This document shows, piece after piece, positions 26,528 through 36,601 of a stretch of 41,735 nt of DNA. This stretch comes from a virus. Position numbers and translations under genes: made by a program. The DNA lies in IMG/VR virus record IMGVR_UViG_3300042923_000189, positions 1 to 41,735 of that record; one strand, written 5' to 3'. Below the pieces are notes generated by a model. That model worked only from the letters and a program-made list of their open reading frames with translations. It was not told the origin of the DNA and made no database searches. Every line of letters starts with the position of its first letter. The first letter of the stretch is position 1.

Positions 26528-27124
26528 TTATTTTTCTTGTATCATCGCTTCAAGTTTCTTTTTAACATCATCGAGTTTGGCTTGTTTATCTTCGTCAACT
26601 TTGTCTGTAATAATAAATTCTGCATCTGGGGTAAGTATATGACCCCTATTTGTTACACCGGTATCCAACTCGTTTTCTTCACAGGCCTCAGCGATGGTAC
26701 GAAAGGTTTCATAATATTCTGGCGAACAATAGTATTCGTCATTTATTTCAACAACATTTCCGTCGATAATACTTTGCATAAGGTTCATTATGTCGTCCGT
26801 GGTATAGCGCACCCACTCAGTATAATCCTCATTAACCGTAACATAACACTTGAAATTTTTGTTACCTGATTTAGCAGTTACTGTAGCCTTACCGCCGTTT
26901 ATCGCAATCAGTGATCCATTCTTATTAACAGTGATAATATTTTTGTTATTACTGGACCACTTTACATTTTTATATTTGCTTGGCAATTTTAGTGTGCATT
27001 TCTTTCCCTCGTCAATTGCTATCTTCTTATTATCTACAATATCATATGTCTTAGTTGCTCCCATAGCCGAAACAGGAATAAACAACATATATAATAATAA
27101 AATCAAAACGGATAACCTTCTCAT
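26528..27124 (-). CDS. Secreted Ig-like (BIG2-type) cargo protein
   Basis: I choose ATG 27124, since AGGAGG lies just upstream on its strand. The ~198-residue protein has a clear signal peptide (MRRLSVLILLLYMLFIPVSA) and a following bacterial Ig-like 2 domain (KCTLKLPSKYKNVKWSSNN, VNKNGSLIAINGGKATVTAK, residues ~35-100). The C-terminal half is acidic and unassigned. It is transcribed leftward, just past the lysis module, where phages carry lysogenic-conversion genes. It probably acts at the outer surface of the lysogen. It directly follows an HTH gene in the same operon. Confidence 0.8.
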   Translation of the reverse strand: MRRLSVLILLLYMLFIPVSAMGATKTYDIVDNKKIAIDEGKKCTLKLPSKYKNVKWSSNNKNIITVNKNGSLIAINGGKATVTAKSGNKNFKCYVTVNEDYTEWVRYTTDDIMNLMQSIIDGNVVEINDEYYCSPEYYETFRTIAEACEENELDTGVTNRGHILTPDAEFIITDKVDEDKQAKLDDVKKKLEAMIQEK

Positions 27125-27125
27125 A

Positions 27126-27323
27126 TTACCTCCTAATTTCAACCAAGTCGCCTATATCGCATTTAAAATATTCTGCGAATCTCTCAAGCGATCGCAAGGT
27201 TATGTAGTCATTCTTATTTATCTTGGTAATTACATCGTTTGATATTCCGGTTGCCTCTTGAATGTCCTTCCATTTTAATTCACTATCTATTACCTTTTCT
27301 CTCAATTTCCTATACGTTACCAT
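27126..27323 (-). CDS. Cro/C1-type HTH regulator of cargo operon (65 aa)
   Basis: I start it at ATG 27323 (MVTYRKLREKVIDSEL), after GGGGGG on its strand, instead of a longer Met at 27353. It is a single small HTH domain of the HTH_26/YozG kind (KWKDIQEATGISNDVITKINKNDYITLRSLERFAEYF, residues ~15-52) with the GDLVEI end. It sits upstream of the secreted Ig-like gene with a promoter-embedded dyad, so it likely represses its own operon. Similar proteins in Firmicutes often act as single-domain autoregulators. Confidence 0.82.
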   Translation of the reverse strand: MVTYRKLREKVIDSELKWKDIQEATGISNDVITKINKNDYITLRSLERFAEYFKCDIGDLVEIRR

Positions 27324-27353
27324 ATGCAACCCCCCAAACGAAAAGATATACAT

Positions 27354-27382
27354 ATTTTACCATGATATTTATCATTTGTCGA
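27354..27382 (-). promoter_or_regulatory. Promoter with embedded dyad for the HTH/secreted-protein operon
   Basis: On the minus strand a -35 of TCGACA (plus 27377-27382) and a -10 of TAAAAT (plus 27354-27359) are 17 bp apart. A dyad with 6-bp arms (ATGATA and TATCAT at 27362-27375) fills the spacer, an ideal site for autorepression by the adjacent HTH protein. Confidence 0.55.
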
Positions 27383-27393
27383 TTAGGACAAGC

Positions 27394-27508
27394 AAAATCA
27401 GAAAAACAACTGTAAAAAGATTAAAAACTCTGAAAACAGCGGAAACAAGTACAAGCCTACGCCATATAGTATTAACAAAGATAAAAAAGTTTAAACACAC
27501 CACATAAA
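27394..27508 (+). other. Candidate parC centromere: phased A-tracts
   Basis: A-tracts centred near 27396, 27404, 27416, 27425, 27435 and 27444 recur roughly every 9-10 bases, and more lie at 27478, 27486, 27494 and 27507. Such phasing gives bent DNA. It lies directly upstream of the ParM-like gene, the normal place of a type II partition centromere. No conserved ParR-box sequence is asserted. Confidence 0.5.
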
Positions 27509-27538
27509 CAAAATTAAAATTGTTTAAGGAGGGATTGC

Positions 27539-28417
27539 ATGTTAGGTATTGACAAGGGAACTACATATACCAAGACCGATCAGAAGATTTGCATTAAGAG
27601 CACCATAAGAGAGTACCAGGAGAGCGACATCTCACTGCAGAACGATAAGCTGATTCTCGAGATGGAGAACAAGAAATGGGTGATTGGCGAGAAAGGGAAT
27701 TATTCAACTGATCTAATGAAATCTCAGCACTATAATACAAAAGCTCTCGTACTAACAGCTATAGCACAAAGTACTACGGATGAATGTATTATCACTGACA
27801 TTGTGACAGGGTTGCCGATCGCACTGTATTCCGGCCAGAAACAAATAATGAAGAATTTATTCCAAGATACAAATAATGAGATCCGGATCAACGGAATTAG
27901 AAAAAGGATACGTATAAGAAACGCAGAAGTTTTTCCCGAAGCTGCAGGAGCTTTTTATTCTCAGAACGAGTTTACAGATGCATTAATAATCGACGTAGGT
28001 GGTCTTAGTATTGACACGGCGCAGTTTAAGGGCGGCAAACTGATTAAGTACTCAACTTATTCGATGGGTATGATGAAGCTGTTTTCAAAAATTGCAAACA
28101 AAGTTAACTCGGAACATGATTTATCTCTTACAGAGTGGGATATTGAAGATCTGCTAAAAGACGGATTATTTATATACGGAAAGCAAGTCGATATCGGAGC
28201 TGAAAGGATAATCATTGAGCACGCAAAGGAAATAATCGAAAGGCTTTCTTTAGAATACGATCTAAAAAGTCTAAAGAATATACTTATCACCGGAGGCCCG
28301 GCTGATTGGATAAGTAAGTATCTAGCCAAATATATTCCACAACTTCGAACAATGAAAAACAATCAATATAGCAATGCAATAGGATACAGCAATATCGGGA
28401 GGGTGATATTCGGGTGA
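27539..28417 (+). CDS. parM: ParM-like actin-family segregation ATPase
   Basis: The 292-residue protein has the actin-fold nucleotide motifs: phosphate-1 loop (GIDKGTTYTK, residues 3-12), phosphate-2 loop (IIDVGGLSID, ~150) and adenosine motif (ILITGGPADW, ~250). An AAGGAGGG ribosome binding site precedes ATG 27539. It polymerises into filaments that push apart DNA copies held by ParR. The length is in the range of ParM and Alp proteins. It overlaps the ParR-like gene by four bases, giving a compact parMR operon behind the candidate centromere. Confidence 0.88.
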   Translation: MLGIDKGTTYTKTDQKICIKSTIREYQESDISLQNDKLILEMENKKWVIGEKGNYSTDLMKSQHYNTKALVLTAIAQSTTDECIITDIVTGLPIALYSGQKQIMKNLFQDTNNEIRINGIRKRIRIRNAEVFPEAAGAFYSQNEFTDALIIDVGGLSIDTAQFKGGKLIKYSTYSMGMMKLFSKIANKVNSEHDLSLTEWDIEDLLKDGLFIYGKQVDIGAERIIIEHAKEIIERLSLEYDLKSLKNILITGGPADWISKYLAKYIPQLRTMKNNQYSNAIGYSNIGRVIFG

Positions 28418-28665
28418 GGAAAACAAAGGGATTCTCATATGATCCAGAAATAGATAAGGATGTGATAAATCATATCGATAGCCAGCAGAATGGAAGCCAA
28501 TATGTTTGGGGACTTGTGAGAGCAGATATGTCAGAGAACAGCATTGAGAACATTGTAAACAGACAGATAAAAAAATACCTGCAGGATCACGAAATCACTG
28601 CAGGCTCTAAAGAAAAGGATATTAAACTTGATGCAAACGAGATTAAAAACATACTCAATCTATAG
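28414..28665 (+). CDS. parR: ParR-like centromere-binding protein (83 aa)
   Basis: A GTG start overlaps the ParM stop (GTGA), with GGGAGGGTGAT upstream. The N-terminal half (KTKGFSYDPEIDKDVINHID, then QNGSQYVWGLVRADM) has the ribbon-helix-helix-like pattern of ParR-type proteins: one short strand, then two helices, with a Lys/Asp-rich C terminus that would contact ParM. Position directly after ParM supports this. A 230-base AT-rich gap without an apparent gene follows. Confidence 0.75.
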   Translation: MRKTKGFSYDPEIDKDVINHIDSQQNGSQYVWGLVRADMSENSIENIVNRQIKKYLQDHEITAGSKEKDIKLDANEIKNILNL

Positions 28666-28894
28666 GGTGCACTTACTCCATGGAACGTCATTTCAATCAA
28701 CTGACCTTCGTCAATTTCATTACATGACTAGTGTATGCAAGGACCGTTTGTACAAATACCTATTTTGCTCGTACTAATTCTTAAATTATTATTAAATTCC
28801 ATATATAACAAATCGAGTTATTTTTAAAAATATGACTATTGAAACCGTTGCCGCTAACATTGTATCACCTCTAATCTGAAAGGATGTATGTATT

Positions 28895-29110
28895 ATGAAT
28901 TTTGATGAAATTGGTAAAATGGTTTTTAATGCTTTGATTAATGCAGGCTATTGGGTAATCGCTATCATTACACTTAAAGAAGTTCTTTCTTGTGGATCCA
29001 GAAGAGATATTGAAGGCATTATTAAATCGATCTTAGGCGGAGTAGTAAGCTATGCTGCATTGTATTTCATTACCGATATGCTCGACAAAGTAAAGGATGT
29101 GATGGATTGA
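28895..29110 (+). CDS. Two-pass small membrane protein, VirB2/TrbC-like (71 aa)
   Basis: ATG 28895 follows AAAGGATG. The protein has two hydrophobic segments (residues ~17-33, GYWVIAIITLKEV, and ~44-60, ILGGVVSYAALYFITDM) separated by a short charged loop (CGSRRDIEG). Size and topology match pilin-like VirB2/TrbC or Maff2-type proteins found in Firmicutes conjugative elements. It is the first gene of a tightly overlapping trio with another small membrane protein and a VirB4-like ATPase. The 230 bases upstream contain a possible TTGAAA -35, but no convincing -10. Confidence 0.6.
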   Translation: MNFDEIGKMVFNALINAGYWVIAIITLKEVLSCGSRRDIEGIIKSILGGVVSYAALYFITDMLDKVKDVMD

Positions 29111-29370
29111 TGTATTTAAAAACTGAATTAATTGGTGGTTGGACCGGTGATCAGCTCGATCAGCTCAAAGATAGTATTGCAAGCGGTATTTATGAAGGGT
29201 TTGTAAAATGCATGGATGTAATTTGTAACTTTGTTTTTTGGGGATCCAAGATTGGTATATTGTGCTGCGCAATAGTTTTTATAGCAAGCAAAGATCAGAA
29301 GGCTGTATCAACGGCGGTTAAGCTTGCTCTTATATATCTTATAACTGCGGTGGTGAGTGGCCAATTATGA
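29110..29370 (+). CDS. Second small membrane protein of the T4SS-like trio (86 aa)
   Basis: ATG 29110 overlaps the upstream TGA (TGATG). There are two hydrophobic segments (residues ~44-61, FVFWGSKIGILCCAIVF, and ~68-82, VKLALIYLITAVVSG). An amphipathic N-terminal part precedes them (WTGDQLDQLKDSIASGIYEG), as in small accessory channel proteins of Gram-positive conjugation systems. The stop overlaps the start of the ATPase gene in an ATGA. Family identity is not certain. Confidence 0.6.
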   Translation: MYLKTELIGGWTGDQLDQLKDSIASGIYEGFVKCMDVICNFVFWGSKIGILCCAIVFIASKDQKAVSTAVKLALIYLITAVVSGQL

Positions 29371-31637
29371 AAAAGCTTTCAATGCCGGTATCTAAATATT
29401 TTGAATTTAAGCAGCCCAAATACATATATCTGAAGCTTACGCCTTCCACGTCAATAAGAAATTACAGCACTGATAACCTTCTTAAGTTAATTGCATCCCT
29501 GTATAGAAGCTTCAGCCAACAGATAAGCATAATAAATAAAAAGATGTTTTTTGAATGCTCCGCAAAGGTTTCGTTCTATATCTACATGGAAAAGCATCGT
29601 GTTGAATTCTTCTTTATTGTGCCCGAGGTACACTATTCATTGTTTAAAGATAAATTAACAGATACATGGAGCAATAAGATAACAATAAGTATTGTGTCCG
29701 AAATACCTTTGTTTAGTCATGGATGTGTAAAATATTATATGGATTATAAAAAAGAGGATCCTATGAGTCTTGTGACAGATAAAAGGAACAATGCATTGCT
29801 TGCGTCTGAGCTTGGCACTCTATACGCAATGGAGGATGGAGACAAAGCAGGTGTGATTTTTAATTTTATTCCGATGGATCAACATAAATGGAAAGCAGAT
29901 TTTGAAAATACTATTAAGAGACTGAAGAATGATATGCCGATAAACAAGAACAAAATCAATTTTTGGGTATTATTATCATGGGCGATAGGGTTGGTAGTCA
30001 AAGCAATGGAGATAGGGCTTGAAAGCTTGAGCATAGGAGAATCCGATGTTAAGAGCGTAGGCGAATTTACAATAACTGATGATACCAGAAATAAAAAGAG
30101 CAGCGTAGTCGTGGGAACGCAGATCATTTGCCTTAGCGAGAGCGATAATAAACTACGCGAATATAATACTGCCAAATCACTGTGTCATAGCTTTCAATGC
30201 CTTACATCAAACGATAATGAGCTGATCGGGAGAAGATTGCGCACCAAAGAATTAAGCATTCTAAGCACAACAATCAGCAAGGCTGCAGTACTGAAGATGT
30301 CACCGAGAGAAACACAGCACTTCATATCGCTTCCCGGCCTGGATCTCCTAGAGGAGCACAAGATTATTGACCGTCTGGAAGTATTGGAGCATGAGGTACC
30401 GGGAGAATTAAAGACCGGCATTATAAGTCTAGGCGATACCACTTACAAAGGAGATCCATACAGGGCCTACCTTCCGACCACGAAGAATGAGCGATGTCTC
30501 ACAGTGGTTCTTATAGGTCCAACCAGATCAGGAAAAACCACCGCAATCAGCAACTTTTCAAACGATGCCAGGAATGGCGGTGAGTGTACAATTATTTTCG
30601 ATTTTTGCGGTAACTGCGAGCTCTCTGATAGTGTCAATAAGGATGTTGGCAATGTACTCAATATTGATTGCAGCGACCTTAAGCAACTTCAGGGCATGGG
30701 TTACAACGAAGCTAATCACCACGAAACCGATCCGATAAAACAATATGAAAACGCAAAGATCCAGGCATCGAACTTACTTGCGCTTATCGATGCAGTAAAC
30801 AGTGAAGACAGGGACCTTAAAGCGAAGATGAATAAGTACTTAAGCGCTGCAGCTCTCCTGGTATTCATAAGTAACGGAAAGATAAAGGATGTGTTTGGAG
30901 TCCTTCAGGATCACCGGTTAAGATGGGATTATATCAATGCTGTTCCAAGCAATCAAATGGAGTATATGGCTGAATACATAGATACTATGAAGGAGATTGA
31001 CGATACTAAGCAAGGCGAGGTTATTGGAACTAAATATAACACTGCTATTGGTGGTATTATGGATCGTGTTGGGCAGTTAAAGCAAAACACTTACATGGAG
31101 CTGATGCTTAAAAAGGACTGCAAGAATAACTTTAACTTAATCGATGAGATGCAGAACAATCAGATCATTTGTTTCCGGATGCCGGAGCACATGTTTAGTA
31201 CGCAGGCTGAGAAAGATGCTTATTGCACTTATTGGATGACGAAGATATGGCTTGCTCTTAAATTCCGGAAGGCCTATATTCCGGATGCTCAGCATATTAA
31301 AGTTAATGTTATCGTTGATGAGCTTTCCCAAGTGCCGCACTGTCAAGAGTTTATCCGGAGTAAGCTCAGTCAGATGGCGAAGTTTAACTGTAAAATGATT
31401 ATTAGTTGCCATTATCTGAATCAGATCAAGATTATCCGGGAAGAATTAAAGAGTGCAAACAGTAGTTACATGCTAATATCTGGATGCGATAAGGAGAATT
31501 ACAAGGAGTTGAAGGAGGAGCTGGCGCCTTACTCGGTCGATGATCTCCTGAGACTTAAGAAGTATCACAGCCTTAATCTGATTAAGCTTCCTGACGGATA
31601 TGTTACGTTTGTCACCAAGTTACCAAAACCGCTATAA
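29367..31637 (+). CDS. VirB4/HerA-like conjugation ATPase
   Basis: The 756-residue protein has an N-terminal ~340-residue beta/alpha domain (including YIYLKLTPSTSIRNYS and FFFIVPEVHYSLF) as seen in Gram-positive VirB4-like proteins. MSPRETQHFISLPG then precedes a RecA-like ATPase with Walker A about residue 384 (GPTRSGKTT) and Walker B about residue 650 (VIVDELSQV), and a MIISCHYLNQ segment after it. Such proteins drive conjugative secretion or DNA translocation. It is coupled to two small membrane genes and lies after parMR. No relaxase is in the window. A HerA-like defence function is a possible alternative. Confidence 0.75.
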   Translation: MKKLSMPVSKYFEFKQPKYIYLKLTPSTSIRNYSTDNLLKLIASLYRSFSQQISIINKKMFFECSAKVSFYIYMEKHRVEFFFIVPEVHYSLFKDKLTDTWSNKITISIVSEIPLFSHGCVKYYMDYKKEDPMSLVTDKRNNALLASELGTLYAMEDGDKAGVIFNFIPMDQHKWKADFENTIKRLKNDMPINKNKINFWVLLSWAIGLVVKAMEIGLESLSIGESDVKSVGEFTITDDTRNKKSSVVVGTQIICLSESDNKLREYNTAKSLCHSFQCLTSNDNELIGRRLRTKELSILSTTISKAAVLKMSPRETQHFISLPGLDLLEEHKIIDRLEVLEHEVPGELKTGIISLGDTTYKGDPYRAYLPTTKNERCLTVVLIGPTRSGKTTAISNFSNDARNGGECTIIFDFCGNCELSDSVNKDVGNVLNIDCSDLKQLQGMGYNEANHHETDPIKQYENAKIQASNLLALIDAVNSEDRDLKAKMNKYLSAAALLVFISNGKIKDVFGVLQDHRLRWDYINAVPSNQMEYMAEYIDTMKEIDDTKQGEVIGTKYNTAIGGIMDRVGQLKQNTYMELMLKKDCKNNFNLIDEMQNNQIICFRMPEHMFSTQAEKDAYCTYWMTKIWLALKFRKAYIPDAQHIKVNVIVDELSQVPHCQEFIRSKLSQMAKFNCKMIISCHYLNQIKIIREELKSANSSYMLISGCDKENYKELKEELAPYSVDDLLRLKKYHSLNLIKLPDGYVTFVTKLPKPL

Positions 31638-31644
31638 ACAATAG

Positions 31645-31674
31645 AGCCCTTGCCTTAACCGGTGAGGGCTTTTT
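31645..31674 (+). terminator. Terminator after the VirB4-like gene
   Basis: AGCCCT pairs with AGGGCT around a 14-base loop, with a T run on the plus strand, ending the accessory operon. A near relative occurs at 32522, where the loop likewise begins TGCCTTG. Confidence 0.75.
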
Positions 31675-33154: not shown

Positions 33155-34387
33155 CTATATTGCTTTAAACATTTTTTTACGTTCCTCTCGGGTGAGAGTC
33201 TTTTCTTCTGTGGTGGTAGTCTTCTCAGGTTTGACATTTGGCTTGATGGAATTATTAATTTTATTGGCTGCTTCTTCATCCATGTCTTTTAATACATGCT
33301 GATAAACTTCTCTCAGTGTAGACACTGTAGAATGCCCAAGACGCTCCGCAGCAACTTTGTCCGATATATTTCCTCTCAACATCACAACTGCATTGTAATG
33401 CCTCAGGTCGTGTAAACGAATATGCGGAAGATTGTACTTGTCCAACAAATAATTAAATCTCTGAGAAAGAGATTTCGGTTTCCACCGGGTGACAACATTG
33501 GTATCTGAACCCGGCTTTCCACAAGATACATAATGTCTTTGTAATGTTTCGATGACATATTCAGGGGCTGATATGGTTCTCTTGCTTGTTTCGTTCTTGG
33601 GATCCTTCTCGATATTACTTGTAAAGTTTACCATGGTCTGTTCTATGGTGATAGTTTTTGCCTTGAAGTCTACATTTTCCCATCGCAATCCGAGAATTTC
33701 GCCACGCCTTAATCCTGATCCGGCCCCCAGGATGATCGGAACTTCTTCATCTTTTCCATGAACAAAATCAAGTAATTTAAGAAACTGGTCTTTGTTATAT
33801 ACAACAGGTCTATATTTTACCATAGGAGACAACTCTACTCCATCGGTCGGGTTAGTCCTGATTTTGCCATTAATCATCGCATAGTGTAGTGCAGCTTTAA
33901 GAAATTTATTAAGCTTAATAACAGTGTTGATGCTGAGCTTCGGCATTGTTTGGGTGACAATCTTGTCGCCATGCTTAACTTTATGCTCCCTCTCATTAGA
34001 TAGTTTGAAATTATAAAACGTATCCAGCGTTATGGTTTTTATATCTTTGAGTTTCGTATTACCAAAATAAGGCTCAAAATGCACATCAATATACATTTTG
34101 AATAGTTCTGCGGTAGTCTTTTCCCACTTTGCCTTGTCTGGGCGTTTTGATTTTGGGTCCCACATATCATATCCGGCTCTTATCCGGTGATATGATTTCA
34201 AAAACGCAATCAATGTATCTTTGTTCGGAGGAGTATACTGCCCGGTTCGAATCTCAAATAAAATCTCACCTGCTTTTTCAATAACTTCTTTTTCTGACCA
34301 TCCGTAGATGAGTTTTGGTCTACTCGCTCCAATATCAACAGGATATACCCATCTACCATCTGAATTTCTCTGATAAGGTTTTCCCAT
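33155..34387 (-). CDS. int: Tyrosine integrase
   Basis: The start at 34387 follows AGGAGGTAATTGT on its strand (an upstream Met at 34411 lacks a ribosome binding site). The 410-residue protein has an N-terminal Arm-DNA-binding domain (AP2-like, MGKPYQRNSDGRWVYPVDIG), a core-binding SAM-like domain (~70-190), and a catalytic domain with GLRRGEILGLRW (first Arg), LHDLRH (HxxR), GHSTVSTLREVYQHV (His and the Tyr nucleophile). It mediates integration and excision at the tRNA-derived att site. It starts just after the stop of the repressor gene, so the two are one leftward operon. Confidence 0.95.
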   Translation of the reverse strand: MGKPYQRNSDGRWVYPVDIGASRPKLIYGWSEKEVIEKAGEILFEIRTGQYTPPNKDTLIAFLKSYHRIRAGYDMWDPKSKRPDKAKWEKTTAELFKMYIDVHFEPYFGNTKLKDIKTITLDTFYNFKLSNEREHKVKHGDKIVTQTMPKLSINTVIKLNKFLKAALHYAMINGKIRTNPTDGVELSPMVKYRPVVYNKDQFLKLLDFVHGKDEEVPIILGAGSGLRRGEILGLRWENVDFKAKTITIEQTMVNFTSNIEKDPKNETSKRTISAPEYVIETLQRHYVSCGKPGSDTNVVTRWKPKSLSQRFNYLLDKYNLPHIRLHDLRHYNAVVMLRGNISDKVAAERLGHSTVSTLREVYQHVLKDMDEEAANKINNSIKPNVKPEKTTTTEEKTLTREERKKMFKAI

Positions 34388-34391
34388 ACAA

Positions 34392-34709
34392 TTACCTCCT
34401 ATATAAATCAATCATCTGGTCAAGCTTCTCGGGAGATACGTCTTCCTTGATAGCTTTATCGATCACGCTTATATATTCTTTTTTGTTAGCAAACTGTATA
34501 GTGCTAAAATCTCCGTTGCCCGCAAGCCAATCCAGCGTAACGCCAAAATAATCAGCTAAGCTTATCAATGCCGATAATCCAGGCTCAGACTTCCCATGCT
34601 CATATCTCCATATTAATGATTTTGTGCTGTCAACTGCTTCAGCGAGTGTTTCATATGATAGCTCTTTCCTTGTTCTTAACATATTCAGCCTTTTCGCAAA
34701 CTCATTCAT
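34392..34709 (-). CDS. CI-like repressor (105 aa), HTH only
   Basis: I start at ATG 34709; GAGG lies ten bases upstream on its strand. The HTH is clear (RKELSYETLAEAVDSTKSLIWRYEHGKSEPGLSALISLADYF, residues ~13-52), and the C terminus is a short helical tail (DVSPEKLDQMIDLYRR) without an S24/LexA peptidase. It should keep the lysogenic state by binding the operators near 34825 and 35146. With no cleavable domain, it cannot respond to RecA directly. Its stop lies four bases from the integrase start. Confidence 0.85.
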   Translation of the reverse strand: MNEFAKRLNMLRTRKELSYETLAEAVDSTKSLIWRYEHGKSEPGLSALISLADYFGVTLDWLAGNGDFSTIQFANKKEYISVIDKAIKEDVSPEKLDQMIDLYRR

Positions 34710-36208: not shown

Positions 36209-36601
36209 ATGGCAAGAGGAATCGTAAGAAAGATTGATGATTTAGGGAGGGTAACCATCCCGATCGAATACAGAAGAGCTATAACCATTGGGACAGGGGA
36301 TGCACTTGACCTTTATATCATGGACAAGGTTATTCACCTTAAGAAGGGTAAAGGCAGAAAGCTTGATGCGCTCGGCAGATATACCTTACCGATTGAGGTG
36401 CGCAGGTCACTCAGATTTGAGCTGAATGAATTAGTTGATATCTATGTTGATGGCGATGAAATTTGTATCAAGAGAGAAACGCTGCAGTGTGTTATCTGTG
36501 GCTCAGAAGATGAAACTCAGCTTCACGAAGTCAATAGGGTATTGATCTGTAAGAGCTGCGCTCTGGCCGTGACTGACATGGTTATGGAGGCAGGTCTATG
36601 A
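36209..36601 (+). CDS. AbrB-type regulator with tandem SpoVT domains and zinc ribbon
   Basis: ATG 36209 follows CGGAGGA. Two swapped-hairpin AbrB-like segments are seen: residues ~1-45 (MARGIVRKIDDLGRVTIPIEYRRAI) and ~48-88 (GRKLDALGRYTLPIEVRRSL). A zinc-ribbon-like tail follows with CVIC and CKSC. The protein should dimerise and bind DNA broadly. It is in the early operon, so likely acts as a transcriptional switch. Tandem AbrB halves in one chain plus zinc ribbon is unusual. The stop overlaps the next ATG. Confidence 0.85.
   Translation: MARGIVRKIDDLGRVTIPIEYRRAITIGTGDALDLYIMDKVIHLKKGKGRKLDALGRYTLPIEVRRSLRFELNELVDIYVDGDEICIKRETLQCVICGSEDETQLHEVNRVLICKSCALAVTDMVMEAGL

Follow-up and report, generated by a model that had tools for sequence, protein, structure and literature searches.

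The 41,735-base virus record IMGVR_UViG_3300042923_000189, covered here over its full length and called the window throughout, carries a five-gene operon whose last three genes, encoding two small membrane proteins and a large ATPase, probably form a minimal membrane translocator of the T4SS type. Taken as a whole, the operon can be read as a minimal T4SS-derived machine (a VirB2-like pilin, a VirB4-type ATPase and, between them, a partner in the place of VirB3) that would probably act on phage DNA, a proposal to which we give an even chance of being correct. The translocator reading draws on a full-length structural match of the ATPase to TrwK/VirB4 and on the retrieval of VirB4 chains by its N-terminal domain, as well as on the pilin-family matches of relatives of the first membrane protein and the recurrence of the unit in host-genome loci. 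The anatomy of the module is well supported.

Layout of the operon

The window phage is tailed, with a contractile tail, and genes for the large terminase, portal, major head protein, sheath, tape measure, baseplate and endolysin could all be recognized. Flanked on one side by the lysis genes and on the other by an integrase gene of the opposite strand (33155-34411), the operon begins with a ParM-type actin and an RHH DNA-binding protein, continues with two two-helix proteins, the first of them VirB2-like, and closes with the ATPase and a terminator. Its features, together with the adjoining regulator, are as follows.

27126..27353, minus strand: Cro/C1-type HTH regulator, 75 aa (Pfam HTH_26, 43.8 bits, cut-off 22)
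27539..28417, plus strand: ParM-like actin, 292 aa, first gene of the operon (Pfam ALP_N, 1.2e-18; phrog_691 partition protein, 1.5e-52)
28414..28665, plus strand: RHH DNA-binding protein, 83 aa, overlapping the ParM stop (local RHH profile, which includes the window sequence itself, 1e-22)
28895..29110, plus strand: VirB2-like pilin candidate, 71 aa (two TM segments by TM scan, with a short polar loop)
29110..29370, plus strand: second two-TM protein, 86 aa from the ATG (family alignment), or 87 aa from an alternative TTG at 29107
29367..31637, plus strand: VirB4-type ATPase, 756 aa (phrog_5156, 3.3e-75; TrwB_AAD_bind, 27.3 bits, cut-off 20.5)
31652..31669, plus strand: terminator-like hairpin (pattern match, of which a similar number is expected by chance in the region)

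The regulator gene is divergent from the operon and likely encodes its own repressor. The gap between them (27354-27538) holds a promoter region and a good RBS ahead of the ParM gene, a neighbor of the trio that the initial annotation had named and that the ALP_N match confirms; nothing convincing in the way of parC- or iteron-like repeats was seen near ParM. The RHH protein, which has no Pfam match, is a candidate for a ParR-like or a relaxosome-adaptor-like protein, and 229 bases (28666-28894) separate its gene from that of the 71-residue protein. From there on the genes are coupled by stop/start overlaps, TGATG between the two small genes and ATGA ahead of the ATPase gene, and the hairpin directly 3' of the ATPase stop is the probable end of the operon. 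The coordinates and sizes of the trio, the two hydrophobic segments in each small protein, the Walker motifs and the overlaps had all been described correctly before. The trio is not a chance arrangement, given that the ATPase matches phrog_5156 over almost its full length and that the small genes recur in place in unrelated phages.

Two further genes of the window deserve mention. On the minus strand, a gene adjoining the operon regulator (26528-27142) encodes a 204-residue protein whose N-terminus resembles a signal peptide and which contains a Big_2 Ig-like domain (29.3 bits, cut-off 22.8); it may be a surface protein of the lysogen. On the plus strand, the protein encoded at 36209-36601 contains two stretches matching phrog_4681 (antitoxin; best 6e-32), AbrB-like by eye, and is apparently a tandem duplicate of one domain.

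The ATPase and the two membrane proteins

Three features of the ATPase are central to its classification.

29367..30416, plus strand: N-terminal domain, residues 1-350 (folded alone, pTM 0.80)
30516..30539, plus strand: Walker A, GPTRSGKT, residues 384-391 (alignments)
31308..31322, plus strand: Walker B, VIVDE, residues 648-652 (alignments)

Residues G384, G389-K390-T391, D651-E652 and Q686 are conserved in alignments of 9 to 19 homologues, and the RecA-like core with both Walker motifs is kept in 19. At the level of Pfam, which the initial annotation had proposed to search for a VirB4 assignment, the VirB4 profiles PF19044, PF12846 and PF03135 gave no match, and TrwB_AAD_bind (PF10412) was the only one of the T4SS ATPase profiles to pass its cut-off. 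An NCBIfam search yielded no usable match, a single-sequence search of the PDB found nothing, and a PDB search with the family profile reached only DotL (VirD4-type), at 1e-3.

The structural comparison did bear out the earlier VirB4 assignment. An AlphaFold model of the ATPase, built from 19 homologues (mean pLDDT 82.8), has R388 TrwK/VirB4 as its best PDB match (3.7e-14), in an alignment spanning nearly the whole chain, whereas the matches to HerA, the second-best structural family (3e-11), and to TrwB (6e-10, confined to the ATPase core) are weaker and cover less of the chain. When residues 1-350 were compared with 350,542 PDB chains, the 13 best matches were all TrwK/VirB4 chains (best 5.6e-4, probability 0.99); the TM-scores to VirB4 chains, normalised by query, are 0.31-0.44, which makes the N-terminal domain a distant rather than a close VirB4 relative. 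As modeled, the ATPase has a VirB4-type fold that includes this domain. A chromosomal HerA/FtsK-type pump without a VirB4 domain, the alternative named at the outset, was rejected because the N-terminal domain alone retrieves VirB4 chains. Several public records, among them those of D6E (L008) and Bacillus phage JL and a note on phage G gp156 (L040), label this ATPase family 'lipid A export ATP-binding/permease MsbA', a label that the structure does not support.

The hydrophobic segments of the 71-residue protein lie at residues 9-27 and 41-59, and those of the 86-residue protein at residues 42-60 and 66-84, that is, at its C-terminal end. The 71-residue protein has no Pfam match, TrbC and T4SS_pilin included. 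Its relatives match TrbC at 4e-6 and T4SS_pilin at 2e-6; within its family, five of the 19 members match TrbC/VirB2 and four match T4SS_pilin, and the protein from L028 is the sole member above the T4SS_pilin cut-off (28.3 against 26.6). Judged by sequence, the 71-residue protein resembles the pilin family through these relatives. Of the VirB4/VirB2 identities first proposed for the trio, that of the ATPase stands by its VirB4-type N-terminal domain, and that of the pilin is suggested by the four to five matching relatives, with the window protein itself giving no match. PDB profile searches with the alignments of both small proteins returned chance matches only.

The window pilin candidate has no N-terminal signal sequence and aligns with the mature part of leader-bearing relatives; a leader is present by eye in the pilin relatives of L002, L010, L011 and others. 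Not every such pilin has one: those of Ced are said to be secreted unprocessed (PMC9905601). In L003 (8026-9702), four adjacent genes, the last of them the VirB2-like gene, share nearly one leader (ITMSIHEFMEINRGNLSVTDL) and then diverge, which raises the question of a shared targeting or processing signal. The pilin-like proteins of L006, L007, L028, L036, L038, L039 and L042 begin with an E-T-I-x-F-x-D-F-M-like motif, and several ATPases of the window group begin with a similar K-x-I-K-L-S-x-Y-F (window 29367-29415); these similar starts may represent a common docking signal.

T4SS operons run in the order pilin, small membrane protein, VirB4, and the 86-residue protein occupies the position of VirB3. 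In several Bacilli loci this second membrane gene is replaced by an M23 peptidase with a C-terminal hydrophobic segment, and M23 peptidases directly ahead of the ATPase match the second-protein profile weakly. A wall enzyme near the trio recalls VirB1; this likeness and that of the gene order are drawn from position and general knowledge of T4SSs rather than from sequence.

Recurrence of the unit and links to DNA transfer

The initial annotation had held that VirB4-like ATPases do not occur in standard phage genomes. This is wrong: the family is common in phages of Gram-positive bacteria, and about 60 sequenced phage records contain it. Searches by tblastn retrieved ATPase relatives in 37 phage records with the window query, 60 with that of Bacillus phage 035JT001 and 61 with that of GBK2, including SPO1 and its relatives, D6E, TP-84, GBK2, Staley, phage G and a Microcystis phage. 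Among sampled genomes, one species each, the family is found in 22 of 399 Bacilli (~5%) and 7 of 391 Clostridia (~2%). Endolysins and integrases are numerous among the genes flanking these loci, when all loci are pooled rather than taken one by one, so that most host-genome loci are probably prophages. No recognisable relative was found on plasmids with the window query; a few were retrieved with SPO1 gp27.4 as query, and relatives occur on one Alicyclobacillus and one Laceyella plasmid. A 99,745-base plasmid (G781:C3) has two identical-scoring ATPase matches 48.9 kb apart, which may reflect a dimer or an assembly doubling.

The initial annotation had asked whether the trio recurs in other phages; it does so, as a conserved unit. 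A pilin was found in 45 of 55 ATPase loci, and in 17 of 20 independent host-genome loci a match to the pilin profile lies directly 5' of the ATPase. The genes upstream in those 20 loci include RHH (15), ParM (9) and M23 (6); for RHH this is a cleaner count than the 40 of 55 loci overall, which is partly circular since the profile was built from some of those loci. On a quick tree of 53 ATPases, in which phage G, SPO1 and the Laceyella plasmid sit on long branches, the presence of ParM changes at least 14 times and that of M23 three times. RHH changes at least 11 times, a figure inflated by missed weak RHH genes, as in L021, L022 and L025, where the gene can be seen by eye but escaped the profile. 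With the pilin mostly kept and ParM changing, the core of the unit is the RHH protein, the pilin-like protein and the ATPase, and ParM an optional partner.

A connection with DNA is suggested by the RHH genes, by ParM and by a Replic_Relax gene directly 3' of the ATPase in SPO1, FADO and a Laceyella plasmid. ParM might act as does StbB, a partition-like ATPase that positions plasmid R388 at the pole and is needed for its transfer when StbA is present (PMC3098194), and which we take as a model for the window operon by analogy. The window itself, as had been noted, contains no relaxase: profile searches of the record found no Replic_Relax, Relaxase or Rep_trans, and a search run without a positive control found no Mob_Pre. 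No VirB6-like or CedA polytopic channel is present among the likely genes of the window, where the sole polytopic candidate is the tape measure. One T4SS-type ATPase, passing the TrwB/VirD4 profile and bearing a VirB4 N-terminal domain, was found among the annotated genes, and no separate VirB4 or VirD4 was seen among them, in a search that profiled part of the ORFs. With no relaxase, VirB6 or VirD4 found, the window system is by definition not a conjugation system.

Proposed function and comparison with known systems

In the mechanism that we propose, the machine would be assembled in the host cytoplasmic membrane. The RHH protein would bind phage DNA and bring it to the membrane, with or without a ParM filament; the ATPase would extract or assemble the pilin and power the passage of a substrate through the membrane, with DNA of the phage itself as the likeliest candidate. 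For some phages, the route could lead through a gap in the wall cut by the M23 peptidase that replaces the second membrane gene, a link to the wall suggested by the position of this peptidase, with its C-terminal hydrophobic segment, just ahead of the ATPase. Such a machine would serve to transfer or export phage DNA without virions, either in lysogens or at an early stage of infection. Substrate and direction are what we infer from this anatomy: that phage DNA is the substrate has, in our view, slightly less than an even chance, and transfer from cell to cell is doubtful. Transport by the trio is putative for every member of the family. Several points weigh against the translocator reading: neither a relaxase nor VirB6 nor a separate VirB4/VirD4 was seen in the window, its pilin candidate has no Pfam match and no signal peptide, Replic_Relax comes directly after the ATPase in only 3 of 55 loci, and SPP1 does not need ORFs 31.2 and 32 to grow (PMC6316719).

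One alternative is that the operon positions or segregates DNA inside the cell, with ParM and the RHH protein pulling genomes while a membrane-anchored, FtsK/HerA-like ATPase pumps or tethers them, with no cell-to-cell step. The sharing of one operon by ParM, RHH and ATPase genes would suit this, as would the rank of HerA as second-best structural family and the lack of a relaxase in the window. However, ParM comes and goes on the ATPase tree while pilin and ATPase persist, the N-terminal domain is of the VirB4 rather than the HerA type, parC-like repeats were not found, and neither a VirB2-like pilin nor an M23 wall peptidase has an obvious place in such a system, which leads us to regard it as unlikely.

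A second alternative is a surface or secretion device that alters the host envelope, through superinfection exclusion, a short pilus or protein secretion, and moves no DNA. In T4SSs VirB4 drives the assembly of the VirB2 pilus, and the location of the operon between lysis genes and integrase, with its own regulator and terminator, resembles that of a lysogenic-conversion cassette; the SPP1 trio, moreover, is expressed early and has been partly shown to be dispensable (PMC6316719). This reading sits poorly with the RHH genes, the most constant extra neighbor, and with ParM and Replic_Relax, and no recurrent gene for a secreted substrate was seen nearby; we think it improbable, if credible.

A motor for uptake of phage DNA at genome entry is suggested by the archaeal Ced and Ted systems, in which VirB2-like pilins and a VirB4/HerA ATPase work together in the import of DNA (PMC9905601), but it is very unlikely, since the trio proteins are made only once the DNA is inside, SPP1 without gene 32 still grows (PMC6316719) and the CedA/VirB6 channel was not found in the window. 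A HerA-type defense machine, one of the options originally raised, is the least probable of all and was rejected: the low PADLOC score of the ATPase against mad8 (32 bits) and its structural similarity to the HerA of Sir2-HerA systems are set against pilin-like small proteins, the lack of a SIR2, nuclease or DUF4297 effector in the operon and of any other PADLOC match among its genes.

If the trio moves DNA or protein, phages long used as laboratory models would turn out to carry secretion machinery built from far fewer components than a standard T4SS, and the boundary between phage and conjugative element would blur. The furthest extension, which we consider unlikely, is that many phages of Gram-positive bacteria, SPP1 and SPO1 among them, possess a VirB2/VirB4 conduit of three to five proteins through which phage DNA, or a substrate made by the phage, would enter neighboring cells directly, as a second, virion-independent means of spread. 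Even a role confined to DNA positioning or envelope change would provide a function for a family that about 60 sequenced phage records contain and that is usually annotated as 'hypothetical' or, misleadingly, as 'MsbA lipid A export'. The function of the trio is directly testable, as viable deletions covering part of it exist in SPP1 (PMC6316719).

Parts of this picture have already been noted in the literature, namely the SPP1 translocon and the Tyrovirus block (PMC6316719, PMC9703825); in the literature searched, mostly without subscription journals and bioRxiv, we found no earlier report of a pilin identity for the first membrane protein, of the VirB4-type N-terminal domain, of a connection with M23 peptidases or of the spread in Clostridia prophages. 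The SPP1 re-annotation of 2018 described gp32 as resembling TrwB, VirB4 and FtsK and proposed that it could form a trans-membrane translocon with gp31.1 and/or gp31.2 (PMC6316719). In the SPP1-type module, represented by the counterparts in GBK2 and 000TH010, a full-length VirB4/TrwB-like ATPase is directly preceded by two genes for small TM proteins, as in the window, and an RHH gene lies upstream. These counterparts lack the ParM of the window, the window pilin lacks a leader, and the ATPases are far apart in sequence; the GBK2 ATPase matches (6e-24 over 91%) that of Terrisporobacter phage TPDSL_ph2, the closest relative of the window among sequenced phages.

The VirB2-VirB3-VirB4 block of R388 has the same gene order as the trio and an ATPase of the same N-terminal domain plus core, whereas the other T4SS genes were not found in the window and its ATPase has no VirB4 Pfam match. 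In the crenarchaeal Ced and Ted systems, too, a VirB4/HerA ATPase accompanies small pilins of two TM segments in a setting other than a conjugative plasmid (PMC9905601), but these systems have a CedA/VirB6 protein of 6-7 TM segments, which was not found in the window. A block of ParM, RHH protein, T4SS protein and Replic_Relax, possibly from a conjugative plasmid, has been described in Tyrovirus (PMC9703825); Tyrovirus (Thrax) and FADO share ParM, RHH, small proteins and the same ATPase family with the window and add the Replic_Relax gene. Phage G gp156 also belongs to the family, and unlike the window phage G clusters it (L040, 851-6415) with a TrbL/VirB6-like gp153 and a second, TraG/VirB4-type ATPase, gp155. 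With a Replic_Relax gene 5 kb away, this jumbo phage has nearly all of a Gram-positive conjugation core.
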